64,000 bases of DNA from Thalassotalea sp. HSM 43 (lineage in GTDB: Bacteria > Pseudomonadota > Gammaproteobacteria > Enterobacterales > Alteromonadaceae): NCBI RefSeq assembly GCF_004752005.1, contig NZ_CP038493.1:3372302-3436301 (forward strand), in the 5' to 3' direction. The notes under the pieces are model-generated. The model ran no database searches, had not been told where the DNA came from, and saw only the letters and a list, made by a program, of their open reading frames with translations. Positions within the stretch are counted from its first letter, which is position 1. Every line of letters begins with the position of its first letter. A program made the translations under genes and the position numbers. Below, piece by piece: positions 1,083 through 50,754 of this stretch.

Positions 1083-4000
1083 TGAAACTGATTAATTTAA
1101 CCATCAGCGCATTCGGCCCTTTTGCAAAAACGCAGACAGTTGATTTTACCAGCCTAGGTGATAATCCGCTGTTTTTAATCGATGGTCCAACTGGCGCGGG
1201 TAAGTCTTCGGTGTTACATGCTATATGTTACGCCTTATATGGCGAAACGACCGACGAAGCGCGCAAAGAGCAGGGCATTCGCAGCGATCATGCCAGCGAT
1301 GATACCTTAACCTCGGTCGGTCTAGAATTTGCCATTAAAGACAAGCGCTATCGAATAACCCGCACACCTTCGCAAATGCGAGCGGGTAAACGCGGCGATA
1401 AATTGGTCAAACACAACGCCACCGCAGAATTATTGCAGTTGCTTGACGATGGCACAGAACAGCTGCTCGTCGCCAAAAAGAAAAAGGATGCCGACGAATA
1501 CATTTTGCAAATTGTCGGATTAAGCGTGGATCAGTTTCGCCAGGTCATGGTATTACCACAGGGCAAATTTCGCGAATTGTTACTGGCCAACTCAAGCGAC
1601 CGTCAAGCGATTTTATCGACGCTATTTGCCACTGACATTTATCAAAAAATTGAAACACAAATTAAAGAGCGTGCCCTGCAAATTGAACGCCAATACAGTC
1701 AATTTAAAAGTAAGATTGATGAAACCTTGAGCGAAGTGTTGGTCGACAGTAATGAACAACTGCAGGAAAAAATTGTACAGCAACAACAATTGTGCGAGCA
1801 GCAACAGCAAGCCAAACATATTGAAGACGCTAATCGTCAATTATGCTTAGGCCAATATAAAGATGGCGAAAGCCTAAGTAAGCAGTTTCAGTTGCATGCC
1901 ATAGCGACAGAAAAACTCACCGCAATCGAAAGCCAACGTGAGGCTATGCAGGCTTTAGCGCAGAAAATTGAACTGGCGTTAACCGCACAAAAAATTAAGC
2001 CGCAATTACAAGCGTTAGACCAGCTAAAGGCTGACGTTCAACAAATTGAAACGCAGAAAAAGGTGTGGCTAAACGAGCAACTTGAGCTTAACAAACAACA
2101 TCAACATGCCACACAGCAATGGCAATCGGCCAAACAACAACTGCAACAGCGGGATGAGATATTACATCGTATTGCGGGGTTAAAGTCCTTGCTACCAGTG
2201 CAGCAAAGCTTTGCCCAAACTCAGCAGTATTATCAAGACCACGATAAGGCATTGCAAGACGCACAATTATTACTGCAAAGCAAACAACAAGAGCATAAAT
2301 CCATTGCTGAGCGCAGTGAAAAAGGCCGTCTGTTAATTGAACAAAGCCAACAACAACTGGGCCAGCAAAACGAGTTAATGCTTGAATTGAAAAATTTACA
2401 GCAGCAAGCAATATTATTGGACGAACGAGATCAGCTCAATCAAAAGCTGATACGCACTCAAAACGATTTAACGCAAGCGCAACAGGCTTACCAGCAACAA
2501 TATCGACTATGGCAACAAGCTGAGCAGCATTATCATCAACAAGCGAGTCATTATCATGCCAATCAAGCGGCAGTATTGGCCGCTCAACTTGAGATAAACC
2601 AGCCATGTCCAGTGTGCGGTTCCGCTGTGCATCCTGCGCCATGTCAGGCAAGTGGCGATAACAGCGTTGATCAAGCAACGTTGGAGCAAGCACAAACAGC
2701 TTGGCAACAGCAGCAACAACGATTAGCAAAATCGGATACCAATCAACAGCAGCAACAGTTACTAAGTCAACAACTCGAACAACGTATTGCACAAATTAAT
2801 CAACAGCTTAAAGAGCAATTTGCTGATAGATTCTCCGCCGATAGGGTTGAGGTAAGGCAGCATGTTAGTCGGCTGGAGCTGCGTATTCAGGAGTTGACGA
2901 CGGTTGCCGATAACATCAAAAAATGGCAAATAAACCAGCAAAAAATGAGTGAATCATTAGCGCCGCTTGCCCAGAATATTGAACAATTAAACCAACAATT
3001 GCCTACGCTGGTTGCTGCCAAAGCCAGTGCCCAACAAGCACTGCAACAAGCCAGTGAGACGCTTGCTGAAAAATACCGTACAGCGGGCGTATTAGAGGCC
3101 GAAATAGCCGAATTGACAGCACAAATAGCTCAGTTAGAACAAACTCATGACGAGACTGAAAAAGCGGTGCAGGCACTGTTGCAACAAGTCACCGCAATCA
3201 ATGCACATATTGATCAGGGCAAGCAGAATATAGCGACGGTATCCGCACGTCTTAATACACAACAGCAAGTGTGGTTAGCGGCGCTAGAGCAACATGGTTT
3301 TGCTAATGAGCAGGCGTTTAAAGTGGTCGAACTCGATGAACAGCAGGTTGCTGCCTTGCAGCAACAACTTACCCAGCACAAAGAGCAACGCCAGCAAATA
3401 AAAGGCCAAATTAGTGCTCTGGCGCAACAGCTTGAGGACAAGCAACAACCCAATCTAGACGCATTGCAACAAAAGCTCGACCTTGCCCAGCAGAACTTAA
3501 TTGCCGCAGAACAGCTGCTTTCACAAACCACAATGCAGCATAACCGTTTACGTGATGCGCAACGTAAAATCAGCGCCATTGAAGATCAACAAAGTGACAA
3601 TAAACGTCAATATGAGGTGATAGGAAATCTGGCTTTGGCGGCGTCTGGTCGTGGCAACGTAAGGGTGTCATTAGAACGCTTCGTTCTCGCCGACTTACTC
3701 GACAGTGTGTTAGCCATTGCCTCGAAACGATTGCACCTGATGAGTCGTGGCCAATATCAATTAATACGTCAAGACGAAAGTGCGCAGAAGCGCAATGTCA
3801 CAGCGGGCTTAGATTTGGCGGTATTTGATAGTTACAGTAGCAAAGCAAGGCCGGTTGCAACCTTATCTGGTGGCGAATCGTTTATGGCGTCTTTGGCGCT
3901 GGCGTTGGCGCTAAGTGACGTGGTTCAGCAGCGCTCAGGAGGAATCGTGCTCGATACCTTGTTTATCGACGAAGGTTTTGGCAGCTTAGATCAAGACTCA

Positions 4001-8125: not shown

Positions 8126-8731
8126 ATGAGTGTATTAGTAGGTCGTTCAGCACCTGACTTTACTGCTGCAGCTGTACTAGGAAGCGGTGAAATTGTTGAT
8201 AACTTTAACTTAAGCGAAGCCATCAAAGGCAAAAAAGCAGTTATCTTTTTCTATCCACTAGACTTCACCTTTGTATGTCCTTCTGAGTTGATCGCATTCG
8301 ATCACCGTATGGATGATTTCAAGAGCCGTGGCGTTGAAGTAATCGGTGTTTCTATCGATTCTCAATTCTCTCACAATGCATGGCGTAACACGCCAGTAAA
8401 CGAAGGTGGTATTGGTCCAGTTCAATACACTCTAGTTGCTGACGTTAAACACGAAATCTGTCAAGCATACGATGTTGAGCACCCAGAAGCTGGTGTTGCT
8501 TTCCGTGGTTCTTTCCTAATCGATGAAGAAGGTAATGTTCGCCACCAAGTGGTTAACGATCTTCCATTAGGTCGTAACGTTGACGAGATGTTGCGTATGA
8601 TTGATGCACTTTCTTTCCACCAAGAGCACGGCGAAGTATGTCCAGCGGGTTGGAACAAAGGTGACAAAGGTATGACGGCCTCTCCAGAAGGTGTTGCATC
8701 TTACCTTTCTGACAATGCTGACGAATTATAA
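8126..8731 (+). CDS. Typical 2-Cys peroxiredoxin (AhpC/Prx1 class)
   Basis: Thiol peroxidase that reduces H2O2 and organic peroxides. The 201 residues contain the peroxidatic cysteine C51 in FYPLDFTFVCPSE and the resolving cysteine C172 in GEVCPAGW, with the C-terminal YF-like region replaced by a SYLSDNADEL tail. An ATG also exists four codons upstream at 8114, but GGAG at 8116-8119 is well placed for 8126, so I chose the shorter start. It is monocistronic with a strong terminator. The regularised codon usage relative to its neighbours suggests high expression. Confidence 0.93.
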   Translation: MSVLVGRSAPDFTAAAVLGSGEIVDNFNLSEAIKGKKAVIFFYPLDFTFVCPSELIAFDHRMDDFKSRGVEVIGVSIDSQFSHNAWRNTPVNEGGIGPVQYTLVADVKHEICQAYDVEHPEAGVAFRGSFLIDEEGNVRHQVVNDLPLGRNVDEMLRMIDALSFHQEHGEVCPAGWNKGDKGMTASPEGVASYLSDNADEL

Positions 8732-8753
8732 GCATTAATTTAAACATTTTTGC

Positions 8754-8784
8754 AAAAGCTGCTTTTTTAAGCAGCTTTTTTTTT
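8754..8784 (+). terminator. Intrinsic terminator after peroxiredoxin
   Basis: An 11-bp perfect stem (AAAAGCTGCTT/AAGCAGCTTTT) with a TTTT loop, followed by a long T-run. It lies 22 bp after the stop. Confidence 0.88.
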
Positions 8785-19993: not shown

Positions 19994-21001
19994 ATGATTG
20001 AAGCGGATCGTTTAATACAACCTACGTTAAGTAAAGAAGAAGAAACCATCGATAGGGCAATACGCCCGAAAATGCTTGCCGATTACACTGGTCAAGACCA
20101 TGTAAAAGAGCAGATGGAAATCTTTATTCAAGCAGCAAAAAAGCGCGAAGAGCCGCTTGATCATCTGCTGATCTTTGGGCCTCCAGGCTTAGGTAAAACC
20201 ACGCTTGCCAATATCGTTGCTAATGAAATGGGCGTTAATATACGTACCACCTCGGGCCCGGTATTAGAAAAGGCCGGTGACTTAGCGGCATTGTTAACCA
20301 ACCTTGAAGAGAACGATGTTCTTTTTATTGATGAAATTCACCGTTTAAGCCCAATGGTGGAAGAAATTCTTTATCCCGCGATGGAAGATTATCAACTCGA
20401 CATCATGATTGGTGAAGGTCCGGCAGCACGTTCGATCAAACTTGATTTGCCACCGTTCACATTGATTGGCGCGACAACCCGTGCCGGCGCATTAACGTCG
20501 CCATTACGAGACCGTTTTGGTATCGTGCAACGTTTAGAATTTTATAAAGTAAGTGACTTAAAGCACATCATTTCCCGTAGCGCGCATTTCTTAAATGTAG
20601 AAATGGATGACGATGGTGCTTTAGAAGTTGCCAAACGCTCTCGCGGCACCCCTCGAATTGCCAACCGATTGTTACGTCGTGTGCGTGATTATGCCGAAGT
20701 CAAAGCCGATGGTGTTGCCAATCAAGACGTTTCAGCTAGAGCGTTAAATATGCTTGAGGTTGACTCGGAAGGTTTTGATTTAATGGATCGCAAGTTATTG
20801 CTGGCCATTATGGAGAAATTTGATGGTGGACCGGTAGGGCTCGATAATATCGCTGCGGCAATTGGTGAAGAACGAGAAACCATTGAAGACGTTATTGAAC
20901 CTTTCTTGATTCAACAAGGCTTTTTGCAACGCACCCCAAGAGGTCGTATTGTCACGTCCAAGGCGTATTTGCATTTTGGTCTTGATATGCCGGAACGCTA
21001 A
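19994..21001 (+). CDS. ruvB: Holliday junction helicase RuvB
   Basis: Hexameric AAA+ motor that drives branch migration on RuvA-bound junctions. The 335 residues show Walker [12 protein letters not shown], Walker [10 protein letters not shown], sensor 1 [10 protein letters not shown], arginine finger region SPLRDRFG and a C-terminal winged helix ([22 protein letters not shown]). It is last gene of ruvAB and converges on the MocA/XdhC pair. No strong terminator hairpin is seen after it. Confidence 0.98.
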
Positions 21002-21036
21002 TTGGTTTTTACGCGTTAGCGCAAAACTTGTTAAGC

Positions 21037-21092
21037 GTCTCTTTTATTGAGCTTGTTTAGATACTTATTTAGAGACTTTATTTAGACTTTTG
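21037..21092. repeat. Imperfect direct repeats at the ruvB/mocA junction
   Basis: Three near-copies of TTTAGA(G)ACTTTA spaced about 13 bp occur between the convergent ruvB and MocA-like genes, the last running into the end of the latter. No clear hairpin terminator is present in this 76-bp gap. Confidence 0.4.
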
Positions 21093-21668
21093 AGAGAGTT
21101 GCTCAGGGCGATCATAGTCGGTTATGGTGCCCTTATCGTCGACTTCCACAGTGATCAACTGTGCACTATTAGCTTTTATAATATGTGCCGCGCCACTATC
21201 TCCACAAAGCTTAATCAACTGCTGAAAATACGGTTTAGAAAACCCCACAGGGTGACCATGTTGTGCCCGATATGTTGGCCGAATGATATGCTCAGGCAAC
21301 ACCGCCTGTTTTAATGAAATAATGCTTTGCCCACGAATGTCTGGCATATCCGCTAGAAACACCCATACCCAAGCAACCGCCGATTGTTGAGTGATGCGCG
21401 ACATTGCCGCCGCTAGACTGCTACCCAAACCTATATCGACCGCCGGTGCTGCGATTAATTGAATTGCCTTATCGTCTATTAATTCGATAAGTTTTGCATC
21501 CTCGTGACGATGCACTAAATAGACAGTGTCAAAATGGCACTTTACTGTTGCCAGTGTTTGCAACAGCAATGGTGGTTCACCAACAAAACGTTTATCTGCA
21601 CCAAATCGTCTGGAATAACCGGCGGCTAAAATGATCGCAACGTGTTGCTCTGGCAGGTCTGTCATCAT
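21078..21668 (-). CDS. MobA-like nucleotidyltransferase (MocA family)
   Basis: NTP-transferase-fold protein, probably a molybdenum cofactor cytidylyl- or guanylyltransferase. The 196 residues show the N-terminal nucleotide-binding motif ILAAGYSRRFGADKR, FLADMPDIRGQSI with the metal-binding Asp, and GHPVGFSKPYF. Its start overlaps the XdhC-like stop by 4 bp (ATGA), so they form a coupled operon. No molybdoenzyme gene is in view, so the served hydroxylase (xanthine dehydrogenase-type) must be elsewhere or absent. Confidence 0.85.
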   Translation of the reverse strand: MMTDLPEQHVAIILAAGYSRRFGADKRFVGEPPLLLQTLATVKCHFDTVYLVHRHEDAKLIELIDDKAIQLIAAPAVDIGLGSSLAAAMSRITQQSAVAWVWVFLADMPDIRGQSIISLKQAVLPEHIIRPTYRAQHGHPVGFSKPYFQQLIKLCGDSGAAHIIKANSAQLITVEVDDKGTITDYDRPEQLSQKSK

Positions 21669-22660
21669 AACTCTTGTTTACTTACACCGTGTCGCACACG
21701 AATAATATCAGCCATGGTGGCAATGGCGATTTCTACTGGTGTTTTACTGCCGATGTGCAAACCAATTGGCGCATTAAGGCGGCTTAATTGCTGGTCATTA
21801 AAACCGCATATACGTTTTAATCGTTCTAAACGTTTCTCTGTGGTGCGCACGGAGCCCATGGCTCCGATATAAAATGCTTTGCTTTCAAATACCGTCATTA
21901 ATGCGACATCATCTAATCTTGGATCGTGGGCTAAGGCCAATACTGCACTATTGGCTGTCGTGTATTGACTGACAAAGTCATCTGGGGACATCCAGGTAAT
22001 ATCCACACCGCCGCGTTTCTTGTCGAACTGCCAGGTATTGCTGAGTTCTTTGCGCATGTCACACACTTTGACGTTAAAACCACTTAATAACCCGAGGCGA
22101 GCGATTTGTTCGCTAACCAAGCCTATACCAATTAACAATAATTGAAATATCTCCTGATAATGCAGCGTAATGTCATCGCCAATTTGTTCAACGTTTTGCA
22201 AAGGCTTAGCGTCAGTGTCGATAGCGCACAGTTGCCGCGATTGGGAGTCTAAGCGTACCATTCTTTGATAGGGGCGCTGGGCATGTGCTAAGTCTAACCA
22301 TTGTTGAAAGTAAGCCCGCTCAATTTGGTTGGCGTCAACGTATTCAATAAGCAATTGGATCCGTCCACCACAAGGCAGTTCAGCATAACTGGCGGCTTGT
22401 TGGCCATGTTCGCCGTAAACAAAGGTTTGATTACATTTGTTAAAATAATCGTTATTTAGCATATCAACAAATGCGTCTTCTAGGCAGCCACCAGATATGG
22501 AACCAAACCGTTGTACACCGTCAGTGATAAATAGTGAGCCTATAGGGCGGGGGGCTGAACCATAAGTATTAGTAATCGTACACAACCAAAAGCTGTGATT
22601 ATTGCTTAATAAGGTATTGGCATGTTCTAAAACGGTTATATCGGTAAGTTGCATGAGCAT
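21665..22660 (-). CDS. XdhC/CoxI-family molybdenum hydroxylase maturation protein
   Basis: Factor that binds modified molybdenum cofactor and inserts it, after sulfuration, into xanthine dehydrogenase-type enzymes. The 331 residues include the N-terminal XdhC/CoxI domain with GSAPRPIGSLF and SGGCLEDAF, and a C-terminal Rossmann domain with LLIGIGLVSEQIARL and a YIGAMGS segment near NAPIGLHIGSKTPVEIAIATMADI. It heads a two-gene operon with the MocA-like protein. The upstream minus-strand terminator at 22711-22741 lies between it and the proposed sRNA promoter. Confidence 0.88.
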   Translation of the reverse strand: MLMQLTDITVLEHANTLLSNNHSFWLCTITNTYGSAPRPIGSLFITDGVQRFGSISGGCLEDAFVDMLNNDYFNKCNQTFVYGEHGQQAASYAELPCGGRIQLLIEYVDANQIERAYFQQWLDLAHAQRPYQRMVRLDSQSRQLCAIDTDAKPLQNVEQIGDDITLHYQEIFQLLLIGIGLVSEQIARLGLLSGFNVKVCDMRKELSNTWQFDKKRGGVDITWMSPDDFVSQYTTANSAVLALAHDPRLDDVALMTVFESKAFYIGAMGSVRTTEKRLERLKRICGFNDQQLSRLNAPIGLHIGSKTPVEIAIATMADIIRVRHGVSKQEL

Positions 22661-22710
22661 ATTAAGTTGAAAGCATTGCTTATAACTTACTGATTAATTG
22701 TTTATTTGGC

Positions 22711-22741
22711 AAAAAAAAAGCCCACTTGAATTCAAGTGGGC
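22711..22741 (-). terminator. Minus-strand intrinsic terminator upstream of xdhC
   Basis: Palindromic stem GCCCACTTGAA/TTCAAGTGGGC followed on the minus strand by nine T residues. No protein gene lies upstream to be terminated, which is why a small RNA is proposed. Confidence 0.85.
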
Positions 22742-22814
22742 ACAACAATAAGAGTTGATAGTAGGAAGTTAAATAAATCCAGGAACAATAAATAACAAGA
22801 GATGTTTCTGAGAT
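22711..22814 (-). ncRNA. Candidate small RNA, about 104 nt
   Basis: On the minus strand a -10 TAGAAT (22826-22821), a TTGTTG -35 (22849-22844, 17-bp spacer) and a GCGCGC discriminator of stable-RNA type are followed, about 70 nt later, by a perfect 11-bp hairpin (22720-22741, sequence centred on GAATTC) and nine U residues. No ORF lies between. The body is A+U-rich with two UUCCU segments that could pair with Shine-Dalgarno sequences, as in Hfq-dependent sRNAs. I do not recognise a known family. An alternative is an attenuated leader of xdhC. Confidence 0.55.
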
Positions 22815-22820
22815 GCGCGC

Positions 22821-22849
22821 ATTCTATAGAGATTTTTTTTCAGCAACAA
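22821..22849 (-). promoter_or_regulatory. Promoter of candidate sRNA
   Basis: Minus strand: -35 TTGTTG, 17-bp spacer, -10 TAGAAT, then GCGCGC. The G+C-rich discriminator resembles that of the two tRNA promoters in this window. Confidence 0.5.
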
Positions 22850-22980
22850 ACAAGATTTTTTTGATTTTCACATAAGAAAATCTAATGTGAAATGGGTGGT
22901 GTGAAAAAAATGACTAAATATGCAGTTGTTGCCGTAATGTATGCGTATAAAGCCTGATTGTTAAATATTTATTAACGTTT

Positions 22981-23001
22981 TAGGTCACCCAAAGTGACCT
23001 A
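22981..23001. promoter_or_regulatory. Hairpin upstream of ybgC
   Basis: Perfect 8-bp inverted repeat TAGGTCAC/GTGACCTA with a 5-nt spacer, about 170 bp before ybgC. It lacks a T-run, so it is an operator or RNA structure rather than a terminator. Confidence 0.4.
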
Positions 23002-23171
23002 TTATGGATAACAAAAATTTGCGCTAATTCTTGCCTTCGCATTTTTTCGCCATTTTTTTTGTTGTATTGCTTATAAAATCTGCAAAAAATAACCGCCTGC
23101 ACTTGAGGCCAAGGCCAGATATGACGTAAGATAGGGCCTTATAGTTGTGGTAGCCACTCAAAGAACCATTC

Positions 23172-23585
23172 ATGGATAAAAATAATAATTTTACCTATCA
23201 GCTCCGAGTTTATTACGAAGACACCGATGCCGGTGGCATAGTTTATTATGCAAACTATTTAAAGTTTGCTGAACGTGCGCGCACAGAATGGTTACGAGCC
23301 TTAGGTATTAACCAATCTTTTTTTCTTGAACAAAAACTTGGCTTCGTGGTCAGAAAAGTAGAAATGGATAACAAAGCGTCCGCAAAACTGGATGACTTAC
23401 TAACCATAACAACAACAATTTCGAATTTAAAAAAGGCAAGTTTGCAATTTAAGCAAGATATACACAACCAAGACGGTGTGCTGTTGTGCAGTATCTCTGT
23501 GTTGGTTGCTAGTGTGAATTTAGAAAAAGCCCGACCTTGCCCGATTCCTCAAGTCATATTAGGAGCATTAACCAGTGCACGCTGA
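23172..23585 (+). CDS. ybgC: Tol-Pal system-associated acyl-CoA thioesterase
   Basis: Hot-dog fold thioesterase that starts the tol-pal operon in most gammaproteobacteria. The 137 residues have the family's catalytic Asp and motif [19 protein letters not shown] near residue 14-32. Its stop overlaps the tolQ GTG start by 11 bp. The function is linked to the inner-membrane phospholipid side of the Tol system, but the physiological substrate is not settled. Confidence 0.95.
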
Positions 23586-24276
23586 ACTATCGTTTTTTGA
23601 TTTATTTTTGCAAGCCAGTTTACTCGTAAAAGCAGTAATGTTGACCTTACTAGGTTTCTCTATTGCTTCATGGACCATGATCATTCAGCGTTCAAAAGTT
23701 TTAAATAATGCCAAGAATCATGCCCAATCATTTGAAGATAAATTCTGGTCAGGCGCTGATCTAAGTAAGTTATATAAAGAAATCAATTCTCGAGGCAATT
23801 TTGTCGGCCTAGAAAGTCTATTTGTTTCCGGCTTTAAAGAATTTGCCCGCATTCGTAAAAACCCAGGCGCGTCGTCTCAGGAAGTCGTTGATGGTACTCA
23901 CCGCGCCATGCGCGTCGCCTTATCTCGCGAGGTTGACGAATTAGAAACCCACCTATCATTTTTAGCGACAGTTGGTTCAATCAGTCCATATATTGGTTTG
24001 TTTGGTACGGTTTGGGGGATCATGAATTCATTTATTGCCTTAGGTGCTGTACAACAAGCAACCCTAGCCATGGTTGCACCTGGTATTGCCGAAGCCTTGA
24101 TCGCAACGGCGATGGGATTATTTGCTGCGATTCCTGCGGTAATGGCGTTTAACCGTTTCTCACACAGCGTTGAAAAGCTAGAGAACAGTTACGGTAACTT
24201 TATGGAAGAGTTTTCCAGCATTTTACAACGTCAGTCTGTGGCTATGTCACAACAATCTCAGCAACCTGCTCAGTAA
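23575..24276 (+). CDS. tolQ: Tol-Pal protein TolQ
   Basis: Inner-membrane proton-channel subunit homologous to ExbB/MotA that energises TolA with TolR. The 233 residues have three membrane segments (about 15-36, 135-155 and 170-190), including conserved [17 protein letters not shown]. The start is GTG at 23575, inside the end of ybgC, with a purine-rich TTAGGAG site about 7-8 nt upstream. TolR follows after 15 bp. Confidence 0.97.
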
Positions 24277-24291
24277 TTCGGGAGAGCGACT

Positions 24292-24714
24292 ATGTATGTT
24301 CGTTCCAAACGCAAACGCGTAGCTGAGATCAACGTTGTTCCTTATATTGACGTGATGCTGGTCTTGCTGATTATTTTTATGGTAACAGCACCTTTGATTA
24401 CACAAGGGGTAAAGGTCGACTTACCAAAAGCGGATTCAGAGGCACTATCGGAAGATTCTAAAACACCTTTGGTAGCCAGTGTTGATGCTAATGGTCGTTT
24501 TTATCTAAACGTTGGTGAAAGCAAAAGTGAGCCGTTAGAGCCTGATGAGCTCGCGACCTTGGTTAAGGCGCGACTCACCGTAGACCCTGAAACACCCGTG
24601 GTGGTTAATGGTGATGGTAATGTTAATTACAATTCCGTTATTCAGCTTATGGTGTTGTTGCAAAACGCTGGTGTGCCTTCGGTTGGTTTGATGACTGAGT
24701 CACCGGAGAGTTAA
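24292..24714 (+). CDS. tolR: Tol-Pal protein TolR
   Basis: ExbD-like stator subunit with one N-terminal membrane helix and a periplasmic domain. The 140 residues show the conserved INVVPYIDVMLVLLIIFMV helix, in which the Asp carries protons. GGGAGAG precedes the ATG. TolA begins 4 bp downstream. Confidence 0.97.
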   Translation: MYVRSKRKRVAEINVVPYIDVMLVLLIIFMVTAPLITQGVKVDLPKADSEALSEDSKTPLVASVDANGRFYLNVGESKSEPLEPDELATLVKARLTVDPETPVVVNGDGNVNYNSVIQLMVLLQNAGVPSVGLMTESPES

Positions 24715-24718
24715 TCGC

Positions 24719-25711
24719 GTGAACGTTATCAAGAAGATGATTGCTAATTTAGTCGATAGATGTATGGGCATATTTACCTATCTACCCGACGGCAAAACCA
24801 TCAAGCAAAATTACCTAATCGCCCTTGGTGCAGCGGTGGTTGTTCATGCGGTATTTGCGATTATTTTGATGGCAAACACTGATTTTTCGCCAAAGCAAAA
24901 GCCGACACCGAAACCGCAATTGCAGGTTATTGATGCGGTGGTTGTTGATCAATCGAAGTTGCAGCAACAGGTAGATAAGCTCAAACGCGAACAACAAAGA
25001 GCGAAAGAGCGTGAGCAAAAACGTATTAAGGATCTTGAACGCCGTGCTGACGATGCGCGCAAGAAGCGTCAAGCCGAAGCGGATCGCATTAAAAAGTTAG
25101 AAAGCGATCGTAAGAAAAAAGAAGTTGAACGCAAAAAAGCTGAAGACGCTGCGAGAACGGCGAAAGCCAAAGCAGCCGCTGCAGAAAAAGCGCGACAAAA
25201 GAAAGTTGCTGAGCGCAAACAGGCTGAAAAAGCGGCAGCTGATGCAAAAGCGAAACGTGAACGTGAAGAAGAAGCGGCACGTCAAGCTGAAGCGGAGCGA
25301 CGTCGTAAGAAAGCCGAGCAAGAGCGCAAGCAAAAAGAAGCGGCAGAGCGAGCCGAGCAAGAACGTTTGTTAGAACAACAAATGCAAGAAGAGATGGCGG
25401 CGCGTCAAAGCGCTCGAAGCCAACAGGTGATGAGCGAAGTTGATAAATACAGTGCCTTGATTGTGCAATCTATTGAGCGCAACTTTATTCAGGACGAGGC
25501 CACAATGCGCGGTAAATCCTGTAAAGTACGTATTAAGCTGGCTTCTAGCGGCTTTGTTATTAGCGCATCTGCGGTCGAAGGCGATAGAGCGGTTTGCCAA
25601 GAAGCGGTTAAAGCAGTTAATAAGGCCGGAACTTTGCCTGTATCGAAAGATCCGTTAGTGTTTGAACAACTAGAAAACATCATCATTACTTACGCACCAG
25701 AGTTTAATTAA
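24719..25711 (+). CDS. tolA: Tol-Pal protein TolA
   Basis: Links inner membrane to Pal and the outer membrane during cell constriction. The 330-residue protein has an N-terminal membrane helix (about 32-52), a long Ala/Lys/Glu/Arg-rich helical rod (about 78-245) and a C-terminal globular domain containing the two cysteines in [10 protein letters not shown] and RAVCQEAV. The start is GTG. The rod's repetitive codons make the gene's composition unusual, which is normal for tolA. Confidence 0.96.
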
Positions 25712-28699: not shown

Positions 28700-28775
28700 C
28701 GGTCGTTAGCTCAGTTGGTAGAGCAGTTGGCTTTTAACCAATTTGTCGAAGGTTCAAATCCTTCACGACCGACCA
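28700..28775 (+). tRNA. tRNA-Lys (UUU), copy 1
   Basis: A 76-nt cloverleaf with 7-bp acceptor stem (CGGTCGT/ACGACCG), anticodon loop CTTTTAA (anticodon TTT) and encoded CCA. It is first of four identical copies. Confidence 0.97.
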
Positions 28776-28849
28776 CTTTCTTCACCAAGGAAAGTGACTG
28801 TTAACACTACGTTCTCAATAAACCAATATGAGAATGTGAAAATATATAT
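28776..28849 (+). repeat. tRNA-Lys spacer repeat, copy 1
   Basis: About 74 bp (starting CTTTCTTCACCAAGG) that recurs almost unchanged at 29025-29099 and 29176-29250, showing that the tRNA plus its spacer were amplified in tandem. Confidence 0.85.
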
Positions 28850-28925
28850 CGGTCGTTAGCTCAGTTGGTAGAGCAGTTGGCTTTTAACCAATTTGTCGAA
28901 GGTTCAAATCCTTCACGACCGACCA
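28850..28925 (+). tRNA. tRNA-Lys (UUU), copy 2
   Basis: Same sequence as copy 1, anticodon TTT and encoded CCA. Confidence 0.97.
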
Positions 28926-28967
28926 CTTTCTTTATTTCAGAGAGTGATTGTTAGCATTAAAAGCCAA

Positions 28968-29024
28968 GGCTTTTAACCGTTAACATCAAGTTTGGTCGAA
29001 GGTGTCAATCATCATCACCGGCCA
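28968..29024 (+). pseudogene. Decayed tRNA-Lys remnant
   Basis: GGCTTTTAACC followed by an 11-bp insertion and a mutated T-arm/acceptor (TTTGGTCGAAGGTGTCAA ... CCGGCCA) aligns with the 3' two-thirds of the real tRNA, and the flanking bases match the array spacer. The acceptor and T-stem pairing is lost and no 5' half exists, so it cannot be a working tRNA. Confidence 0.75.
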
Positions 29025-29099
29025 CTTTCTTCACCAAGGAAAGTGACTGTTAACACTACGTTCTCAATAAACCATTATGAGAATGTGAAAAATCTATAT
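29025..29099 (+). repeat. tRNA-Lys spacer repeat, copy 2
   Basis: Near-identical to the spacer at 28776-28849 with one or two base differences. Confidence 0.85.
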
Positions 29100-29175
29100 C
29101 GGTCGTTAGCTCAGTTGGTAGAGCAGTTGGCTTTTAACCAATTTGTCGAAGGTTCAAATCCTTCACGACCGACCA
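29100..29175 (+). tRNA. tRNA-Lys (UUU), copy 3
   Basis: Same sequence as copy 1, anticodon TTT and encoded CCA. Confidence 0.97.
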
Positions 29176-29250
29176 CTTTCTTCACCAAGGAAAGTGACTG
29201 TTAACACTACGTTCTCAATAAACCATTATGAGAATGTGAAAAATCTATAT
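29176..29250 (+). repeat. tRNA-Lys spacer repeat, copy 3
   Basis: Identical to the spacer at 29025-29099. Confidence 0.85.
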
Positions 29251-29326
29251 CGGTCGTTAGCTCAGTTGGTAGAGCAGTTGGCTTTTAACCAATTTGTCGA
29301 AGGTTCAAATCCTTCACGACCGACCA
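29251..29326 (+). tRNA. tRNA-Lys (UUU), copy 4
   Basis: Same sequence as copy 1, anticodon TTT and encoded CCA. It ends the intact array. Confidence 0.97.
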
Positions 29327-50344: not shown

Positions 50345-50421
50345 GGAGTGGTAGTTCAGTTGGTTAGAATACCGGCCTGTCACGCCGGGGGTCGCGGGTT
50401 CGAGTCCCGTCCACTCCGCCA
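50345..50421 (+). tRNA. tRNA-Asp (GUC), copy 1
   Basis: A 77-nt tRNA with acceptor stem GGAGTGG/CCACTCC, anticodon GTC in loop CTGTCAC and encoded CCA. Confidence 0.97.
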
Positions 50422-50461
50422 ACATTTTCCTCACATATTTGATTGCGCGTTTTATCGATGC

Positions 50462-50538
50462 GGAGTGGTAGTTCAGTTGGTTAGAATACCGGCCTGTCAC
50501 GCCGGGGGTCGCGGGTTCGAGTCCCGTCCACTCCGCCA
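50462..50538 (+). tRNA. tRNA-Asp (GUC), copy 2
   Basis: Identical to copy 1; the spacer of 40 bp is unrelated to the other spacers. Confidence 0.97.
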
Positions 50539-50564
50539 ACGATATAAACAAACAAATCCTATGC

Positions 50565-50641
50565 GGAGTGGTAGTTCAGTTGGTTAGAATACCGGCCTGT
50601 CACGCCGGGGGTCGCGGGTTCGAGTCCCGTCCACTCCGCCA
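50565..50641 (+). tRNA. tRNA-Asp (GUC), copy 3
   Basis: Identical to copy 1. Confidence 0.97.
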
Positions 50642-50677
50642 CGATTTGTCAAAGCTGCGTTGAAGTATCCCTGTTGC

Positions 50678-50754
50678 GGAGTGGTAGTTCAGTTGGTTAG
50701 AATACCGGCCTGTCACGCCGGGGGTCGCGGGTTCGAGTCCCGTCCACTCCGCCA
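50678..50754 (+). tRNA. tRNA-Asp (GUC), copy 4
   Basis: Identical to copy 1; last in the array. Confidence 0.97.

Follow-up and report, generated by a model that had tools for sequence, protein, structure and literature searches.

If the gap between xdhC and the divergent ybgC-type gene of Thalassotalea sp. HSM 43 encodes a small RNA (sRNA), what kind of RNA is it, and what switches it on? We analysed this question in the window, the whole 64,000-nucleotide stretch of DNA that contains the gap, and in related genomes. An earlier note on this DNA had proposed a minus-strand RNA gene of about 104 nt in the xdhC-ybgC gap, and all sequence parts named for it are present.

Parts of the locus

The features of the locus, in window coordinates, are as follows.

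22711..22814, minus strand: predicted non-coding sRNA of 104 nt, from sequence and fold, without ATG; start at about 22814
22821..22849, minus strand: promoter predicted from sequence, TTGTTG (22844-22849), 17-nt spacer, TAGAAT (22821-22826)
22815-22820, minus strand: discriminator GCGCGC, from sequence
22871..22887, minus strand: palindrome CATTAGATTTTCTTATG, a GcvA-type LysR box; ATTAG-N5-CTAAT (22872-22886) with one mismatch; centre 22879, which is -65 from the predicted start
22763..22786, minus strand: core GUUCCUGGAUUUAUUUAACUUCCU, conserved in the alignment of homologues; contains UUCCU twice (anti-Shine-Dalgarno-like)
22743..22757, minus strand: small hairpin CAAC-N7-GUUG, predicted fold
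22711..22741, minus strand: intrinsic terminator, palindromic hairpin (22720-22741) followed by nine U (22711-22719)
21665..22660, minus strand: xdhC (Pfam domains XdhC_C and XdhC_CoxI), co-directional and downstream, outside the sRNA unit
23172..23585, plus strand: ybgC-type thioesterase gene (Pfam 4HBT_2), lies upstream in divergent orientation and precedes tolQ; used as synteny marker

The gene names ybgC, tolQ, ruvB and mobA are presumptive, recognised from the translations. In the window, xdhC lies 50 nt past the U-tract of the sRNA and has the same direction. The terminator hairpin comprises 11 bp when counted as a palindrome, and 9 bp with a 4-nt loop when counted as an RNA hairpin. It ranks first among the 10 terminator-like sites found in a scan of 20500-25500 (mean of shuffled sequences: 5.6). 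The sRNA promoter is absent from the list of a promoter scan of the same region, because TTGTTG matches the consensus at 3 of 6 positions only. Folding of the 104-nt RNA gave -23.6 kcal/mol (z = -4.67), a value that none of 200 shuffled sequences reached and to which the terminator was the main contributor. The A/U-rich stretch between the start and the terminator carries both UUCCU segments, which, as the earlier note suggested, may pair with ribosome-binding sites. The promoter had been described there as stable-RNA-like. While all its elements were found, this description was incomplete, as the LysR-type GcvA box at -65 had gone unreported. We therefore suggest widening the sRNA interval to 22887, so that it covers the regulator box.

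The claim that the RNA belongs to no known family held: an Rfam scan of the whole window returned no match for the sRNA at gathering score. A scan of ten homologous loci (E<=1), with one of them, L013, viewed in detail, gave sub-threshold matches to CU-rich families only. The window scan also recorded two four-tRNA clusters (28700-29323 and 50345-50751, both plus strand) with identical Rfam scores within each cluster. A literature search, with a coverage that leaves out most subscription journals, found no publication on this sRNA.

Conservation and neighbouring genes

We regard conservation as a stronger test of the sRNA's reality than the fold or the terminator scan. A covariance search of relatives, suggested in the earlier note, was performed with a model (R1) of the 3' part of the sRNA that was built from 18 homologues and matches the window at 22712-22789 with 91 bits. 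Of the 295 genomes that represent the GTDB family of the window, Alteromonadaceae, R1 matched 265, in 50 of 52 genera (E<=0.1 per genome). At this threshold about 30 matches would be expected by chance, and the 18 model sequences match by construction. Among the 15 genomes of the same genus, no R1 match was found in two (G007 and G011). A 191-nt region was 84% identical over its full length in G005, and matched partially in most same-genus genomes and in some from other genera. All named sequence records with the exact core (n=4) belong to Thalassotalea, which NCBI taxonomy places in the Colwelliaceae, Alteromonadales. The window itself contains a second, weak R1 match (8702-8784, plus strand; 25.2 bits, E 0.019), which is probably an ordinary terminator.

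The loci then read numbered 58: the first search supplied 18, and the better-scoring R1 matches listed supplied 40, mostly of different genera. Divergent ybgC and/or tolQ were located upstream in 55 of the 58 loci (38 of the 40 R1-derived ones). Downstream, a convergent ruvB was found in 35/58, and xdhC adjoined the sRNA in 11/58. Promoter and terminator were retained next to ruvB as well as next to xdhC. This pattern of neighbours argues that the sRNA is a gene of its own, and since the linkage to xdhC is confined to 11 of 58 loci, it is not an xdhC leader. Thus, the free-standing non-coding RNA proposed at the outset is borne out by its conservation across relatives.

For structural comparison, an alignment of 56 of the 58 homologues was used, without L157 and L169. 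Pairs one to seven of the terminator stem are standard in all 56 sequences, and at four of these pairs both sides have changed; the eighth pair is gapped or broken in 18/56. At the CAAC/GUUG position, a hairpin with four or more base pairs was predicted in 42/56 folds, and 47/56 predicted folds contain a small GGA/UCC hairpin. The earlier note had named absence of hairpin and promoter from relatives as evidence against the RNA; both are conserved. Within the genus, UUUAACUUCCU of the sRNA is nearly invariant. In other genera, the 5' part of the RNA is longer and often carries CUGAGCUAGCGC close to the start.

A GcvA-type box and the search for GcvB

Upstream of the sRNA, ATTAG-N5-CTAAT is exact in 38 of the 58 loci, has one mismatch in 15 and two mismatches in five. 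With at most one mismatch, the box was thus present in 53/58 homologues, compared to 106 of 2,900 composition-shuffled upstream sequences. A TANNNT hexamer follows the box after 43-47 nt in 58/58 loci, although this is a loose pattern that was sought at 38-52 nt only. The distance from box to core ranges from 90 to 179 nt, that is, the 5' part varies by about 90 nt. Given its fixed spacing to the hexamer and its variable spacing to the core, the box belongs to the promoter rather than to the core.

Both the motif and its position have a counterpart. According to the accessible text of a phylogenetic-footprinting study, a 15-bp repeat has its centres at -65 and -43 relative to the start of gcvB and overlies sites protected by GcvA in earlier DNase I work; gcvB transcription is raised by GcvA when glycine is present (PMC5002191). 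The GcvA consensus is given as T-N11-A with CTAAT in the accessible part of another source (PMC3658693). Of 14 gcvA-gcvB loci of other families that we searched, 13 have a box (<=2 mismatches) no more than 130 nt ahead of the RF00022 start, the exception being L083. In six loci (L079, L080, L082, L090, L095 and L096) it is located at -65 to -67; for the remaining ones, the start of the RF00022 model is possibly not the true transcription start. At -43 of the sRNA promoter, no clear second copy of ATTAG-N5-CTAAT was seen; its -35 region is conserved and TTTGTT-like. Based on the motif and position shared with published gcvB promoters, we predict that the sRNA box is a GcvA site. Comparison among relatives shows an independent conserved RNA gene, with what sequence indicates to be a fixed GcvA-type box at -65.

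Among 21 LysR genes over the cut-off in the window's own genome, the one at about 436 kb was identified as GcvA (NCBIfam, 437 bits versus 288). A near-identical palindrome, CATTACTATTTCTAATG, is located about 18 nt before the likely gcvA start supported by the NCBIfam model; the longest gcvA reading frame would begin within CATTACTATTTCTAATG. Among the first ~100 sites listed for this one genome of the family, gcvA is the one LysR gene with a box just before its start, and we estimate that 0.08 box sites would be expected within 100 bp before the 21 LysR genes. However, the genome contains 153 sites at <=1 mismatch versus 240 in the reversed control, so any single box, that of gcvA included, is weak evidence on its own. 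gcvA (G000:C1, ~436 kb) and the sRNA (~3395 kb) are not adjacent.

The upstream sequences of gcvT contain no box at 0 or 1 mismatch in any of the 15 genus genomes, and a wider GcvA regulon is therefore not seen. The gcvT upstream region is long, and in many of the 15 genomes (L188-L202) similar AAATTTAATTCGG-like stretches are located about 300 nt upstream; together with the missing box, this suggests another control of gcvT. Sites with an exact box were fetched from 13 of the 15 genus genomes, and 14 box loci plus the gcvA locus L057 were inspected. No recurrent gene was detected among the neighbouring frames of the 14 loci, eight of which have the box inside a long frame; for an exact box in a gap (L061), only downstream tRNAs were found.

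In the order, 25 of 119 genomes have an RF00022 match over the cut-off (42 bits), and gcvA adjoins GcvB in all 14 over-cut-off loci that were checked, which belong to other families. Within the window's GTDB family, none of 98 genomes has such a match, under strict filters that lose weak matches. Weak matches (E<=0.001) in 12 of the 98 were taken as chance; the one that was read (L174) is a repeat beside a tRNA gene. The GcvB match in the window's own genome (23.7 bits) is at the end of an apparently unrelated frame. GcvB was not found beside its gcvA either, where a 95-aa frame with no Pfam match lies divergently.

Three loci with sub-threshold GcvB matches are of note. In L093 (G074:C1:909300-912500, from another family, f16), a match of 30.6 bits at 1470-1670, plus strand, coincides with a weak R1 match (23.3 bits); ATCAG-N5-CTCAT is located upstream, and the adjoining LysR gene is 27% identical to GcvA. 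Possibly, this is another GcvA-type sRNA. In L089 and L099 (genus g35, family f15; matches of 38.2 and 26.7 bits, no gcvA alongside), a conserved intergenic stretch at about 1490-1640 comprises CCCCC, UUCCUGUGU and then a strong terminator, and is perhaps another sRNA.

Targets, mechanism and known RNAs

We searched the 15 genus genomes for the target pattern AGGAAGTT-N1-10-ATG. From the matches listed, 118 loci were used (10 own, 28 given, 80 fetched), 50 of which have a frame of at least 60 aa. In the own genome, AGGAAGTT before ATG was not enriched (10 versus 8). Among the matches listed, two protein groups occurred in five genomes each, a POT peptide transporter (Pfam PTR2) and a Yip1-domain protein. 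In 12 Thalassotalea genomes, five of which had been chosen by the AGGAAGTT pattern itself, the POT leader contains AGGAAGTT in eight, AGGAAAGTT in two, AGGAAGAT in one (G004) and AGGAATT in one (G009, where the gene is the less similar one). Compared to shuffled RNAs, the POT duplex reached z < -2 in 7/12, whereas gcvT leaders ranged from -1.46 to +1.13. By raw duplex energy, POT ranked 23rd among 107 own leaders. Outside the genus the POT leader differs, in G015 as well, although its RNA keeps UUUAACUUCCU. We therefore propose the POT transporter as a tentative sRNA target, predicted from sequence. GcvB itself is a repressor of peptide and amino-acid transporters. For the Yip1-domain protein gene (PF04893, 29.7 bits versus 28.6), AGAGGAAGTTA was observed before the ATG in L215, L238, L268, L275 and L289. 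It is disfavoured as a target, because one of its five genomes, G007, is without R1 match.

The best explanation, which we consider probable, is that the locus encodes a GcvA-activated, trans-acting base-pairing sRNA that stands in for GcvB in the window's GTDB family. By analogy with gcvB promoters, the LysR-type regulator GcvA would bind the site at -65 and activate transcription, and, if E. coli is a guide, the RNA would be made while GcvA acts as an activator, with glycine present. The transcript would stop at the intrinsic terminator. Its CUUCCU segments may then pair with ribosome-binding sites and repress the mRNAs, probably assisted by Hfq, whose binding the U-tract and the A/U-rich stretch would permit. 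In Thalassotalea, the POT transporter, and with it presumably peptide uptake, would be the first candidate target, its leader being predicted to pair with the sRNA at AACUUCCU. Thus, the sRNA may do the job of GcvB from a different RNA at a different locus. As to how this came about, we tentatively suggest, at somewhat less than even chances, that the family lost GcvB and that a non-homologous sRNA elsewhere came to be controlled by the same GcvA operator, positioned in its promoter as in that of gcvB; an anti-Shine-Dalgarno seed would have replaced the GU-rich one.

Could the RNA instead be a genuine GcvB, heavily reduced and relocated, which kept the GcvA promoter, the terminator and, near the 3' end, a segment like UUCCUGUAUUUAUUU but lost the GU-rich region and the adjacency to gcvA? 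Promoter architecture is shared, and R1 matches the 3' end of all 14 over-cut-off GcvB loci, scoring best in L086 (31.9 bits, E 0.0011) and in L095 (29.4 bits), where the match runs through UUCCUGUAUUUAUUU, aligned with UUCCUGGAUUUAUUU. However, the other 12 GcvBs score 15.6-24.7 bits, compared to 25.2 bits for a chance place in the window, and R1 also matches four of eight loci below the RF00022 cut-off (22.9-24.6 bits; no match in the other four). Moreover, RF00022 does not match the sRNA, and TGTTGTGTTTGC is missing. Since the sub-cut-off loci and the chance place score alike, we consider a reduced GcvB rather improbable, and replacement likelier than common descent. It is also unlikely that a different LysR-type regulator, recognising a similar box, controls a conserved sRNA that has nothing to do with glycine or GcvB. 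ATTAG-N5-CTAAT does have the general T-N11-A shape, the genome encodes 21 LysR genes, and gcvT has no box. Yet gcvB promoters, as given in the accessible literature, have the same motif at the same -65 position, and among the sites listed gcvA alone of the LysR genes has a box just before its start.

Two further explanations were considered. The earlier note had allowed for an attenuated xdhC leader; in favour of this, or of a terminator without an RNA gene, xdhC lies in the same direction 50 nt beyond the U-tract in the window. We rejected this as highly unlikely, as promoter, box, core and terminator are all kept although xdhC adjoins the RNA in 11/58 loci and a convergent ruvB lies downstream in 35/58. 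The GGA within the small hairpin in 47/56 predicted folds would suit a CsrA-binding sponge RNA. This, too, was rejected and is hardly probable: the 104-nt RNA of the window has one fitting GGA, too few compared to the 25, 21 and 9 GGA motifs of the Pseudoalteromonas fuliginea Csr RNAs reported in the accessible text of PMC11882849.

The GcvA-activated sRNA that we favour reaches the gathering score of no Rfam family; it would extend the set of conserved sRNAs in a large marine bacterial group. In the same group GcvB could not be found, and a likely regulator of the sRNA can now be named. If true, this would be a natural experiment in the replacement or remodelling of an sRNA under a conserved transcription factor.

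Among known RNAs, Csr RNAs Pf1-Pf3 of Pseudoalteromonas resemble the sRNA in that they are intergenic and come from a related marine genus (PMC11882849, accessible text), but CsrB and CsrC contain many GGA motifs, unlike the window RNA. anti-hemB (RF02837), suhB/mmgR (RF00519) and the Betaproteobacteria toxic sRNA (RF02278) resemble it in having CU-rich segments ahead of a strong terminator. The matches are weak, at best 28.5 bits for anti-hemB in L013 and 30.7 bits for suhB in L021, far under the respective gathering scores of 49.5, 41 and 50, and consist of CU runs plus terminator. In the fetched GcvBs we observed TGTTGTGTTTGC, an element absent from the window RNA that we take to be the GU-rich pairing region named R1 (distinct from our model R1). 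GcvB (RF00022) and the sRNA are both single non-coding RNAs with an intrinsic terminator, and the UUCCUGnAUUUAUUU segment near the 3' end of the sRNA resembles that of one GcvB, L095. The sRNA is shorter (104 nt in the window) and without RF00022 match at the locus or in ten homologous loci. Both promoters carry an ATTAG-N5-CTAAT box at -65, as far as the accessible text on gcvB describes it, but the sRNA sits at ybgC-tolQ/ruvB, whereas GcvB sits beside gcvA.
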